In this document: one piece after another, positions 6,475 to 11,999 of the stretch
Layout: each line of letters opens with the position of its first letter
Numbering within the stretch: position 1 is the first letter of the stretch
NCBI GenBank assembly: GCA_003218475.1
Contig: QHNR01000049.1
Coordinates: 1-36,117 of the forward strand
Reading direction: 5' to 3'
Origin: Verrucomicrobiota bacterium
GTDB lineage: Bacteria; Verrucomicrobiota; Verrucomicrobiia; Chthoniobacterales; UBA10450
Length of the DNA: 36,117 nt
The notes under the pieces: model-generated
What the model saw: only the letters and a program-made list of their open reading frames with translations
Database searches by the model: none
Told to the model about the DNA's origin: nothing
Translations under genes and position numbers: made by a program

Positions 6475-8385
6475 TCATCCGAAGATGAGCAAGTGAATGG
6501 ATTCGGGCAACTGCTGAGCGACGTTTGTGGCAACGCTACCGCGGAGGAGCTTCACCAACGCGGGACGTTGTGACGCACCGATGACGAGGAAATCAATGCC
6601 CATGGTTGCTGCAAGATCGACAATTGTCGTGGCGGCGTCCTGACTTACGGCGTAAAGCGGAACCACGTTCATGCCGCGCTCGCTCCCGAGTTTCCGCATC
6701 GAGCACATGATAGCATTTGCTTCCGGGTCGTCCTGCCAGTTGGAGCGGCCAAGCCGTGTGCCGGCTGCCGTGTAATAAACAGCGACCTCTTTGACGTAGA
6801 GCACAAACAGCGTCGCTTTTCGCAATTGCGCTTCGTCCAAGGCAAAGCTGAGCACCGGCGTGATTCCGCGTGCTGCGACCATGATTTTTTGACCTTCCTG
6901 CAAACGCGGTCGCATCGTTGCCGCGAGGTCGGGGGTAACCATCCGGGCAACTTCACGCGTCACGGTGAGAGTCGTGAGACCCTGACGCTTCAATGTGTAA
7001 GCGCGCAATGCCAGCCCGCCCATTAGAATCGCGAGCACGAATTGCAGGGCATCGAGTTTCGTGTGCGCTAGCGTAAGCTCGACAAAAGCCAGAACTACGA
7101 ACGTGACGGCAAACAGCACGCGATCGTACCATGTGAAACCTCTGGTGCGATTGAATGTACACGAACCGACGTTGACCGTGATCGCCCCTACTACGCCGAT
7201 GGCATAAAGGCCGGCCAACGCGGTAAAGTTCGCCGCAAATAGCAGCACCACCACTGGCAGCCCGGTGGCGATGAACAGGGGCCACATGGGAACGCCATGG
7301 CCATTGAGGCGACGGAATTGCCGCGGCATCTCGCGGTCGCGCGACATCATGTAAAGCAGACCGATCATTGCCACGATAGCTGTGTTGGCCGCGCTCAAGA
7401 GCAGCAGGCAGAAAACAACTCCAACAATCCAGCCGAAAATCTGGCCGACTGCGGGCGAAAATGTGGCGGTGGCAAATTCCTCGCCGATGAAGCGCAACAT
7501 GTCTTCACTCCGTTGTCCCAGAATCGCGGAGATCGCGCCCTTATCTGTTAAATGCAGTGTTTTATCCAGGACGGCAGGCAATGAAAGCATTGCCCATCCG
7601 AGCAGCGCCGTCCCAATAACAACCTCGATCGCCACCGGCGTAATCGCCTTGAGCGACTCGCGCGCGACCCTCGGGTGTTCCATTGTCGATCCAGGATCGA
7701 GCTTCATCACGCCGGTAAGATTCGCGATCGACTCCGCACCCGACAACGCCAGGATCACGCTGACAAATTGCACCCAGACGGTGGCTAAACTCTGATGCCG
7801 CGGCTCGAGAAAGCGCGTGGTGAAATGCGGCGCGCTCATCGCGATTAGAAACACCACTACGAGTGCAGTCGGCAGTGCCAGCGCCACTGCGAAACTTCCG
7901 GAATGCTTCGGCCCGAAATAATTGACGAGGCCCATGATCAACAGCACACCAATCGTCGTGAGCGCTATGTGATCGCGAAGAAACCCGATCCAAGTCATCT
8001 GCTCCGCACCGGAAGTGATGTAGCTCAATGCAGACCAACCACTGAGCGCAGCCGTGACCGTAAGATCTGCAACCAGCAGCAGCGCCCCGACAACCGCCAG
8101 CAACCGGCTTTGTTCGCGCGCGGCTGAGTAAACACCGCCACCGTCAGGAAAATGACGGCAGATAACAATGTAATTGATGCCGACCAGCCCGGTGAGCGCG
8201 CAAACGGCAAGGATGATCGGCAGCGATGAAAATCCGGCGGCGACAAACGCCAGACCAATTACGTACGCTTTGCTGGTACCCCAATCGCCGTAGAGCAAGG
8301 CGGCGGCACGTCTCCAATCCAGATTGCGCGGCCGATGCACGCCTGCATGCGTGTCCAGAACAACATCCTCTACGAGCCGCGCCAT
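6475..8385 (-). CDS. APC-superfamily permease with C-terminal UspA-like domain
   Basis: RPRNLDWRRAAALLYGDWGTSKAYVIGLAFVAAGFSS..., multiple TM segments, 'FPDGGGVYSAAR' motif, C-terminal 'GIDFLVIGASQRPALVKLLRGSVATNVAQQLP' UspA-like. Paralogous to 8726-10546. Confidence 0.88.
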   Translation of the reverse strand: MARLVEDVVLDTHAGVHRPRNLDWRRAAALLYGDWGTSKAYVIGLAFVAAGFSSLPIILAVCALTGLVGINYIVICRHFPDGGGVYSAAREQSRLLAVVGALLLVADLTVTAALSGWSALSYITSGAEQMTWIGFLRDHIALTTIGVLLIMGLVNYFGPKHSGSFAVALALPTALVVVFLIAMSAPHFTTRFLEPRHQSLATVWVQFVSVILALSGAESIANLTGVMKLDPGSTMEHPRVARESLKAITPVAIEVVIGTALLGWAMLSLPAVLDKTLHLTDKGAISAILGQRSEDMLRFIGEEFATATFSPAVGQIFGWIVGVVFCLLLLSAANTAIVAMIGLLYMMSRDREMPRQFRRLNGHGVPMWPLFIATGLPVVVLLFAANFTALAGLYAIGVVGAITVNVGSCTFNRTRGFTWYDRVLFAVTFVVLAFVELTLAHTKLDALQFVLAILMGGLALRAYTLKRQGLTTLTVTREVARMVTPDLAATMRPRLQEGQKIMVAARGITPVLSFALDEAQLRKATLFVLYVKEVAVYYTAAGTRLGRSNWQDDPEANAIMCSMRKLGSERGMNVVPLYAVSQDAATTIVDLAATMGIDFLVIGASQRPALVKLLRGSVATNVAQQLPESIHLLIFG

Positions 8386-8493
8386 TGCTTATTGGCTGTG
8401 ACTGTCAACGGCGCGCCTGCTCACTGGCAAGCCGTTTCTCAAGTACGCCTGGTTTGACTATGAATCGACTCAATCAGATGTTTCGGCGGTTCT

Positions 8494-8656
8494 TTGTTTC
8501 GCTTAATGGATCGGCGAGTGACCGCTCCAACGGGGGAACCAAATTTCGTCTGCGAATTCGCGGTGGATCGGGGCAAACGATGCGCGGCATCGAGAGCATT
8601 TAATGGCTCTAGCCCGACAGCTAACCTCGTAAGCAACATTAAAGTGCAAAGGAAGT
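8494..8656 (+). ncRNA. ydaO-yuaA type c-di-AMP riboswitch aptamer
   Basis: Core signatures in correct order: GGGGGAACC, then GGGGCAAA, then AGCCCGACAGCTAACCTCGTAAGCA, then tail AAAGGAAG. P1 GTTtcGCTTA / TAAGCAAC closes the element. Sits upstream of an APC-type transporter, a known genomic context for this class. Confidence 0.88.
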
Positions 8657-8725
8657 CGTGGAACCGACTCCTCGCAAAGTGAAGCGCCTCGTCGCGCGAG
8701 TGACGCTTCGTTTGAGTCGAACGAA

Positions 8726-10546
8726 TTGATTCCAACTAACGTTAAACGTCCGCGCAATGTGGATTGGAAGCGCGCGGCAGCGATTTTGTACGGCGATTGG
8801 GGGACGAGCAAGGCCTACGTCATCGGTCTTGCATTCGCTGTTGCAGGCTACAGTTCGTTTTGGCTGATCGCGGCGATGTGCGTGCTCACTGCACTTGTTG
8901 GCCTCAACTACATGGTCATCTGCCGCCTTTATCCCGACGGCGGCGGCGTTTACGCTAGCGTGCGCCATCGCAGCGAAGTTATATCCATCGTCGGCGCGTT
9001 CTTGCTCATCGCCGATTATTTGGTCACCGCGGCCATCAGCGCGCTTTCCGCTTTTCAATATCTGGGCGTGCCGCACCCAGAAAAATTCGCGGCCATGTCA
9101 ATCTTGATCATTGGCTTACTGAATCTGTTAGGACCGAAACAAACTGGTGGCCTTGCGTTCTTGATTTCGATTCCAACCGCCGTGGTCGTGGTTGTCCTCG
9201 GTCTGTTCTGTCTGCCGCACCTGGGCGAAGCATTTGCTCATTTGCAGCCATTGCGCGGAACATTTGGCCAGAACTGGGCCGCTTTTGTCGGAATCGTGCT
9301 GGCCCTGTCGGGGGTGGAAGCGATCGCCAATGCCACGGGCGTGATGAAGCTCGATCCCGGGAGCAGCGACGAGAAGCCATCGGTGATCAAAACATCCACG
9401 CCCGCAATCATGATAGTGATGATCGAAGTCTGCCTGTTCACGGCGTTGCTTGGGCTCGCGATGCATGCGCTCGGCGGATTGCAGATCGTAAACGGCGACG
9501 TCAACGCGCCAGGGGCCGAAGGCGTCCGCGATTATATGCTGCGTTACATGGGCCAAATCTTCGTCGGAGGAGCGCTTGGCCCCGCGCTGGGTCATGCATT
9601 TGGTTTCCTCGTCAGCATTGTTTTCGGTCTGCTTCTCCTGTCCGCGGTCAACACTGCGATTGTCGACCTCATTGCAATCCAATTTCTCATGTCACGCGAC
9701 CGCGAAATACCAAGAATCTTTCAGCGCCTCAACAAATGGGGCGTTCCAAGCGCGGGAATGTTTCTCGCTACGCTCGTCCCAATGCTTCTCGTGATTATTG
9801 TGAAGGACATGTCTGGCCTGGCCGATCTTTATGCTGTTGGCGTGGTCGGCGCGATAGCAACCAACCTCGGCGCGACTTCAACCGACCGAAAATTGTCGAT
9901 CAAAAGCTGGGAGCGTACGCTCATGTTTGGAACTTTTCTTGTCATGGCAGCGATCGAAATTTCTCTGCTCATCGACAAGCCGAACGCGCGTTATTTTGCC
10001 GTCACGATTCTCGCTGTTGGATTGATTCTCCGTGGACTTGTGCAGGAGCGCCAAATGAAAAAGGAAGCTGCGCCCACGCTGCCGCCACGACAATTAGGTG
10101 TCGATGTTGCGCGTCCGATGTCCAAAGCGCCGTCTTCTCCAGAGGGCGAAGCAATGTTATGCGCGGTTCGAAGCGCAGGGCGTACCCTCGATTTCGCATT
10201 ACGAGAAGCAGCCAGGGCCGGCTCGCGCCTTTACCTGCTCTTCGTGCGTGAACAACCGTTCATGACAGAAGAGGACGCCAGACGCAAATGGCAGCAGGAT
10301 CCGGAAGCCAGCACGATTTTCGCTGAAGCGAAACAGAAAGCTGAGGACATCACGCCGTTGTTCTGCTACGCCGTGAGTCCCTCTGCCGCCGAAACGATTG
10401 TTGATATTGCTGCGACGCTCGGTGCATCGCGCGTCATTCTCGGCGCGCCACAACGCAGCGCGCTGATGAATCTGCTTCGCGGCAACGTCATCCGCGAAGT
10501 ATCTAACTCGTTGCCGGAAGAAATTGATCTGCTCGTTTATGCTTGA
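8726..10546 (+). CDS. APC-superfamily permease with C-terminal UspA-like domain (candidate KimA-type K+ importer)
   Basis: RPRNVDWKRAAAILYGDWGTSKAYVIGLAFAVAGYSS..., 'YPDGGGVYASVRHRSEVISIVGAFLLIADYLVTAA', C-terminal GASRVILGAPQRSALMNLLRGNVIREVSNSLP. Start called at TTG 8726. Follows a c-di-AMP riboswitch. Confidence 0.87.
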   Translation: MIPTNVKRPRNVDWKRAAAILYGDWGTSKAYVIGLAFAVAGYSSFWLIAAMCVLTALVGLNYMVICRLYPDGGGVYASVRHRSEVISIVGAFLLIADYLVTAAISALSAFQYLGVPHPEKFAAMSILIIGLLNLLGPKQTGGLAFLISIPTAVVVVVLGLFCLPHLGEAFAHLQPLRGTFGQNWAAFVGIVLALSGVEAIANATGVMKLDPGSSDEKPSVIKTSTPAIMIVMIEVCLFTALLGLAMHALGGLQIVNGDVNAPGAEGVRDYMLRYMGQIFVGGALGPALGHAFGFLVSIVFGLLLLSAVNTAIVDLIAIQFLMSRDREIPRIFQRLNKWGVPSAGMFLATLVPMLLVIIVKDMSGLADLYAVGVVGAIATNLGATSTDRKLSIKSWERTLMFGTFLVMAAIEISLLIDKPNARYFAVTILAVGLILRGLVQERQMKKEAAPTLPPRQLGVDVARPMSKAPSSPEGEAMLCAVRSAGRTLDFALREAARAGSRLYLLFVREQPFMTEEDARRKWQQDPEASTIFAEAKQKAEDITPLFCYAVSPSAAETIVDIAATLGASRVILGAPQRSALMNLLRGNVIREVSNSLPEEIDLLVYA

Positions 10547-10694: not shown

Positions 10695-11999
10695 TTAATG
10701 CTGACCCGGGGCGACGCTTGCGCTACCGGGGAAAAAAAAGATCGACACCAACACAAATGCCGGAATTAGGATTGGAAGGGCGAACTTCCAGATATAGCCG
10801 ATAAAGCTTGGCGTTGGAACCTGCCCATGCTCAGCAATCGTTTTCACCAGCAGGTTCGGAGCGTTGCCTATATAGGTGAGTGCGCCAAAGAAAGTCGCGC
10901 CCAGTGAAAGCGCGATTAATTCGCCGCCGTTTTTGGAAATAAAGTCGGCTACCTGCGACGGTTCGTTGATGTCGAAGTGGTGGAGTCCGAGTGCTGCCGC
11001 GAAAAAAGCGAGATAGGTTGGCGCGTTATCGAGCAGTGCGGAGAGTATGCCTGTTGCCCAATAGATTGCCGTCTCGGAAGTCAATCCCAGTTTCTCGGCT
11101 GATCCTTCCATGTATTCCAAAACCGGAATCATCGTTCCGAAAATACCGAGAAAGAGCCAGCCGATTTCTTTGAGCGGCGCCAAAGTGAAATTGTTGGCTT
11201 CGCGAATGCCCTGTGGCGTAGCGAAATAGGATCCCAGAGCAATCAGTACCATGAGCGGCTCGCGCCAGCCCGCGCGCACGGCGATGAGCGCAGCCAAAAG
11301 CGCAAACAGGAATAGGAAGTTGTGGGCGCCGTTGCAGCGCCATTGCGTGATCTCGCTTTCATGAATGGCCCTTTTGCGCGCGCGAAGATTGACAAGATCG
11401 AGAATAAAAAAGACGACGAGAACAATCGCGACCGTTAGCAACCATTGGCGCCAGCAATTTTGCAGCGTCCAGCCGAATGGCACGCCTTTAAGAAATCCCA
11501 GGAAGAGCGGCGGACCCACCGGCAACAGCGCGCCGCCAATGTTGCTGACCAGAAAAACAAAGAACGCGATATGCATAGGCGCAACGCGGCCTCTGTTCAT
11601 CGCGATCCACGGCCGGATTAGCAGCATCGATGCGCCGATGGTGCCTATTAGATTTCCCAAGAACGCACCGACAAGGAGGAACAGAGTGTTTCTCATCGCA
11701 CCGCTCGGCGATTTGACGCGCAAATGAATTCCGCCTGCGACAACAAAGAAAGAACCGACCACGACCATGAAGGTCACATAATCGATTCCCGCGTGAACGA
11801 CGCGCGCGCACTGCTTAGCAACGAAGAGATGATAAAGACAAACTATGCCGGCGAGAGCGACGCAAAGCTTGTGGTAATGACGCTCCCAGTGATGCTGAGC
11901 GATGAGCGGAGCGAGTGCGATCGCCACCAGCAAGATCACAAACGGCAGCATTATCGGCCAGTCCGGGCGCGTCGCGACGAGACCCAGGACCCAAATCAT
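10695..11999 (-). CDS. NhaD-like sodium:proton antiporter / citrate-transporter (IT superfamily) family
   Basis: Multi-TM protein with FLVSNIGGALLPVGPPLFLGFLKGVPF and LSLGATFFGALTYIGNAPNLLVKTIAEHG, typical of ArsB/NhaD-type ion transporters. Confidence 0.85.
   Translation of the reverse strand: MIWVLGLVATRPDWPIMLPFVILLVAIALAPLIAQHHWERHYHKLCVALAGIVCLYHLFVAKQCARVVHAGIDYVTFMVVVGSFFVVAGGIHLRVKSPSGAMRNTLFLLVGAFLGNLIGTIGASMLLIRPWIAMNRGRVAPMHIAFFVFLVSNIGGALLPVGPPLFLGFLKGVPFGWTLQNCWRQWLLTVAIVLVVFFILDLVNLRARKRAIHESEITQWRCNGAHNFLFLFALLAALIAVRAGWREPLMVLIALGSYFATPQGIREANNFTLAPLKEIGWLFLGIFGTMIPVLEYMEGSAEKLGLTSETAIYWATGILSALLDNAPTYLAFFAAALGLHHFDINEPSQVADFISKNGGELIALSLGATFFGALTYIGNAPNLLVKTIAEHGQVPTPSFIGYIWKFALPILIPAFVLVSIFFFPGSASVAPGQH

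Follow-up and report, generated by a model that had tools for sequence, protein, structure and literature searches.

The locus and its c-di-AMP aptamer

The stretch of DNA analysed here, called the window below, comprises 36,117 nt of a Verrucomicrobiota genome assembly (3.16 Mb, 83% complete). On its forward strand, a full-length c-di-AMP (ydaO/yuaA) riboswitch aptamer (8490-8651) is located in the leader of a gene with a TTG start codon (8726-10546), which encodes a 606 aa KimA/KUP-like permease ending in a Usp domain (residues 483-595, positions 10172-10510 of the forward strand; PF00582, E 2.8e-10). A paralogue of 636 aa, about 46% identical and likewise composed of an APC permease and a Usp part, is encoded divergently (6475-8385, reverse strand) and lacks a riboswitch of its own; the idea of a hidden second element serving it was rejected, since the 501 bases between 8300 and 8800 contained no Rfam match besides RF00379 up to an E value of 5. 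The next gene downstream of the permease is convergent and encodes an ion transporter of the CitMHS_2 family (10695-11999, reverse strand; E 1.2e-119).

When the whole window was compared with all 4227 Rfam families by cmscan, RF00379 was the sole match above cut-off (57.0 bits against a gathering threshold of 38, E 7.9e-11); the alignment covers positions 1-134 of the 134-position model and is not truncated, and the window copy is the single match in the genome. The preliminary description had placed the riboswitch at 8494-8656 and had listed the conserved ydaO-yuaA blocks in their order. All of these blocks are present in the sequence, namely cGGGGGAACC near 8531-8541, GGGGCAAAC at 8571-8579, CCCGACAGCTAACCTCG at 8613-8629 and CAAAGGAAG at 8647-8655, and the element itself is borne out by the search proposed there, while its boundaries shift by 4-5 bases. 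Across 27 relatives the core blocks are invariant and the core helices are kept (91-100% of the aptamer cells paired), whereas the loops are variable and the helices show compensating changes; since most core pairs do not vary at all, the core contributes little covariation. An outer extension of P1, formed by the 5′ strand CUUUG (8492-8496, forward strand) and UAAAG (8640-8644), appears in the RNAalifold consensus and in the pair counts and is kept in 25-27 of the 27 relatives, with CAAAGGA (8647-8653) as an alternative partner of CUUUG. The element is a real c-di-AMP riboswitch of a known class, and the window RNA is expected to bind this ligand.

The genome also encodes one diadenylate cyclase, a CdaA-type protein of 291 aa with CdaA_N and DAC domains (PF02457, E 7.7e-39), whose gene adjoins a folP-like gene; a search of the genome for the PgpH-type phosphodiesterase domain PF07697 returned nothing. 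The two features on which the preliminary description had made its proposal depend, a significant RF00379 match and a diadenylate cyclase in the same genome, are thus both present.

A Usp-tailed permease related to KimA and Kup

The TTG start codon of the permease gene lies at a conserved position that is occupied by ATG in many relatives. Pfam recognized only the C-terminal Usp domain and a sub-threshold amino-acid permease, and a single-sequence phmmer search of the PDB gave no match and did not reach KimA, from which we conclude that the protein belongs to a distant branch and is not KimA itself. A profile built from 11 members of the permease family, in contrast, found KimA (6s3k) as the best PDB match with an E value of 2.8e-12, followed by a lysine permease at 0.0066. 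The AlphaFold2 model of the permease is of medium confidence (pLDDT 69), and its top three Foldseek matches are all KimA (E 5.9e-17 to 5.8e-13), aligned over the full length with TM values of 0.5-0.6, a high rmsd and 17-18% identity.

Nine KimA residues reported near its K+ and H+ sites (PMC6994465, PMC10284832) were compared, and all of them are conserved in the permease, one as a change from T to S. The pairs, given as KimA/permease and invariant among the 11 aligned family sequences, are D36/D24, Y43/Y31, D117/D97, T121/T101, S125/S105, T230/S195, E233/E198, N237/N202 and Y377/Y369. The first transmembrane segment reads YGDWGTSKAY and is close to the Kup signature YGDIGTSPLY; identity with Kup was nevertheless rejected, because the permease has no Pfam match to PF02705 (K_trans) at an E value of 1. 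In profile-profile comparisons, the permease family scored 78.9 with KimA and 74.5 with Kup of the same class, compared with 51.8 between KimA and Kup, and these scores place the family between the two. The permease is a distant KimA/KUP relative with a Usp tail and probably a potassium importer.

The downstream protein had been described beforehand as having the domain layout of KimA, and its APC-type membrane part with a Usp tail was confirmed. The accompanying statement that the cytosolic domain of KimA is USP-like did not hold, as this domain is PPAT-like according to the literature (PMC6994465, PMC10284832), and the Usp tail thus represents a difference between the two proteins and not a common feature. 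Nor does the tail carry the c-di-AMP motif (A/G/C)XSXSX2N of KdpD; its first strand and loop read AMLCAVRSAGRTLDF, and KdpD-type binding of c-di-AMP by the Usp tail was rejected on the absence of this motif. The residues R337, Y118 and N237 of KimA correspond to R330, Y98 and N202 in the window protein, with R330 varying among relatives, and at the c-di-AMP contact residues H579-N580-Q581-S582 the permease has diverged, reading about RGNV.

Relatives, class-wide regulon and potassium uptake in the genus

Relatives of the permease were collected from 54 loci in public genomes, nearly all of them metagenome-assembled genomes of Verrucomicrobiota and mostly from soil, together with the cultured Chthoniobacter flavus Ellin428, which agrees with the soil Verrucomicrobia-type host suggested beforehand. 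Among the 48 loci with readable upstream DNA, the core motif of the riboswitch was found upstream in 34, while 14 keep the gene without the motif; an Rfam scan of a subset gave 21 c-di-AMP matches in 32 loci. Two of the close relatives (L027 and L062) are on contigs titled Acidobacteria gp4 and Binataceae, which might reflect a binning error or transfer. At another locus (L020), elements were noted at 62-137 on the reverse and 256-417 on the forward strand, and the counterpart in L023 precedes a gene for a Na+/H+ exchanger.

The gene order around the riboswitch is variable. In C. flavus and one further genome (G326), the paralogue lies behind the permease in the same orientation instead of being divergent as in the window, and another case (G024:C132 / L064) has two tandem copies of riboswitch plus permease. 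An ORF of 470-484 aa is inserted between the riboswitch and the permease in at least five relatives (L022, L026, L031, L034 and L051); it lies ~80 nt after the aptamer and overlaps the start of the permease gene, and all three of the inserted ORFs that were tested are BBP2 porins (PF07642). No porin gene was found in the window's own, 83% complete genome.

In a sample of 286 genomes from the class, 63 contained RF00379. The riboswitch lies upstream of 10 of the 14 close orthologues of the window permease, in one case with a porin gene in between, and directly in front of none of the divergent paralogues in this sample. The first large ORF following 64 fetched riboswitches encodes Kup in 18 cases, a KimA-like protein in 14, an SPFH/Band_7 protein in 19 (two clusters), KdpA in three and TrkH in two, with a few unassigned; Pfam checks covered one or two members of each main cluster, and the remaining ones were assigned by BLAST clustering. 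One of the KimA-like proteins of the class matched the PDB with an E value of 2.1e-61. If the riboswitches of the window permease family are added, up to 10 and most of them assigned by coordinates, ~47 of the ~71 riboswitches with an examined downstream gene precede potassium importers. K+ importers make up the greater part of the regulon of this riboswitch in the class. SPFH/Band_7 (flotillin-like) genes follow about one quarter of the riboswitches in the class sample (e.g., L075, L076, L085, L093, L094, L095, L098 and L100), and the open-access literature that we searched contained no paper joining a c-di-AMP riboswitch with flotillin.

Among 35 genomes of the window's genus, TrkH was found in none and intact KdpA and a clear Kup in one each; these counts come from a search over 58 relatives that covered TrkH, Kup and KdpA, in genomes that are incomplete. 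Other families of the same order often have Kup or Kdp. The near absence of the three importers suggests that the permease may carry most of the K+ uptake in the genus.

These data also bear on the substrate. The riboswitch could be functional while controlling a permease of the APC superfamily for amino acids or another solute, such as glutamate or an osmolyte. Such a transporter would explain why Pfam returns amino-acid permease models and Usp but not K_trans, and why a lysine permease ranks second among the PDB profile matches; c-di-AMP has been linked to glutamate homeostasis as well (PMC7857571), and with an identity to KimA as low as 17-18% and a model of the stated confidence, an amino-acid substrate keeps some probability. 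We nevertheless consider this reading unlikely, because two close KimA homologues (L083 and L096) match only amino-acid permease models, too, because KimA ranks first by both profile and fold with invariant ion-handling residues, and because the riboswitch of this class mostly precedes K+ importers while the other known ones are nearly absent from the genus. The potassium import role suggested in the preliminary description thus gains support from profile search, fold comparison, residue correspondence and regulon, and the permease would be a proton-coupled K+ importer in a branch of the KUP/KimA superfamily marked by its Usp tail. More tentatively, and in our estimate with slightly less than an even chance, this family could be a third branch of proton-coupled K+ importers between KimA and Kup that provides the main or only K+ uptake of the genus, in which case the riboswitch would set most of the K+ import and, in several relatives, control the importer and an outer-membrane porin in one operon.

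Expression platform, switching model and known systems

Two hairpins separate the aptamer from the start codon. The first, H1 (UGC..AGGA.GUCG / CGAC.UCCU.GCA; 8645-8676, forward strand), appears in the per-sequence folds; among the 27 relatives, both partners have changed in 4 of its 8 counted pairs. The second, H2 (8681-8709, forward strand), is followed by GUUU, ends 16 nt before the start codon and has both partners changed in 5 of 10 counted pairs in the same relatives. For aptamer and platform jointly, we counted 43 double-change cells, compared with 16 ± 4 in shuffled and at most 13 in slid alignments, controls that leave some relatedness in, so that the count of 43 is not to be read as a probability. 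An alternative pairing, H3 (8665-8719, forward strand), would join CGACUC (8665-8670) to GAGUCG (8714-8719); it cannot form together with H1, surrounds H2 and would cover the sequence immediately 5′ of the start codon, and with 75% of cells paired and a single both-side-changed pair it is put forward here as a tentative candidate. Competition between P1 and H1 via CAAAGGA is plausible by sequence, although in RNAalifold the nearly invariant UAAAG is the favored partner. A strong intrinsic terminator was rejected: the scan of the leader gave a terminator-like match within H2 (8690-8705), but the result was not above chance, and no canonical U-tract follows H2.

The two covarying hairpins between the aptamer and the start codon are consistent with an OFF switch. 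We commit to this direction because the class behaves in this way at kimA and kdp in Bacillus, where the c-di-AMP riboswitch exerts OFF control (PMC6488665). When potassium is plentiful and c-di-AMP high, the aptamer would bind c-di-AMP and P1 would close, whereupon the downstream RNA would refold and expression of the permease would be lowered; possibly, H1 yields to H3 around H2, by which the region 5′ of the TTG would be hidden or transcription ended. Once K+ and c-di-AMP drop, the importer would be made. When the leader is folded without constraints, its minimum-energy structure differs from this model and pairs the 5′ end with the region before the start codon, a pairing that closure of the aptamer would break, as expected if c-di-AMP binding raised expression of the permease. 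An ON switch is nonetheless improbable, given that a minimum-energy prediction is not dependable for an RNA of 246 nt, that OFF control has been seen where such riboswitches were studied in front of K+ importers (PMC6488665) and that more K+ import at high c-di-AMP opposes the known logic. That the aptamer is a degenerate relic without c-di-AMP binding or gene control, which could account for CAAAC in place of the CGAAC of most close relatives and for the mismatch at the bottom pair of P1 in the Rfam model, is highly improbable in view of the full-length match, the invariant core blocks and compensating helices in the relatives, and the occurrence of CAAAC in Chthoniobacter flavus as well. We favor, with a probability of about 0.75, the interpretation that 8490-8651 is a c-di-AMP OFF riboswitch preceding, within the same transcript, the coding region of a K+ importer; it would bind its ligand and, possibly through a switch between H1 and H3, control K+ transport by the encoded protein.

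With this interpretation, the control of potassium by c-di-AMP, which is well understood, would be extended to a group of soil bacteria whose physiology is little known. It also offers evidence from gene regulation on what is transported by a family for which Pfam reports no more than amino-acid permease and Usp. If the family is the main K+ importer of the lineage, one RNA switch would govern its K+ supply. The same arrangement of riboswitch and importer is present in the cultured C. flavus Ellin428 (L061), so that it is directly testable.

Publications to date already describe this class of riboswitch, connect it with K+ transporters and record it in Verrucomicrobia (PMC6488665 and earlier work cited there). 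Like the ydaO/yuaA riboswitches of B. subtilis kimA (ydaO) and B. thuringiensis kdpFABC, the window element combines a full-length aptamer with a location in the 5′ leader of a gene resembling those of K+ importers and a cyclase in the genome, whereas its platform, made of two short, GC-rich hairpins, lacks a clear U-tract and its target gene belongs to a distant branch. The KdpD USP domain that binds c-di-AMP resembles the permease tail in placing a Usp fold on a K+ system and differs from it in the motif discussed above. The permease resembles Kup/TrkD (PF02705) in its TM1 signature and scores nearly as high with it as with KimA in the profile-profile comparison, while it has Usp in place of K_trans_C and falls outside the Pfam family. 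The K+/H+ symporter KimA (YdaO) of B. subtilis (PDB 6S3K, 8B70, 8B71) is similar in its length of about 606 aa, the APC fold joined to a cytosolic alpha/beta domain, the K+/H+ residues, the counterparts of R337, Y118 and N237 and the upstream riboswitch, and is set apart by the low Foldseek identity, the PPAT-like instead of Usp domain and the HNQS stretch. The less familiar parts of this system are the Usp-tailed importer branch and the porin inserted into the operon of relatives, while the riboswitch itself is an ordinary member of its class.
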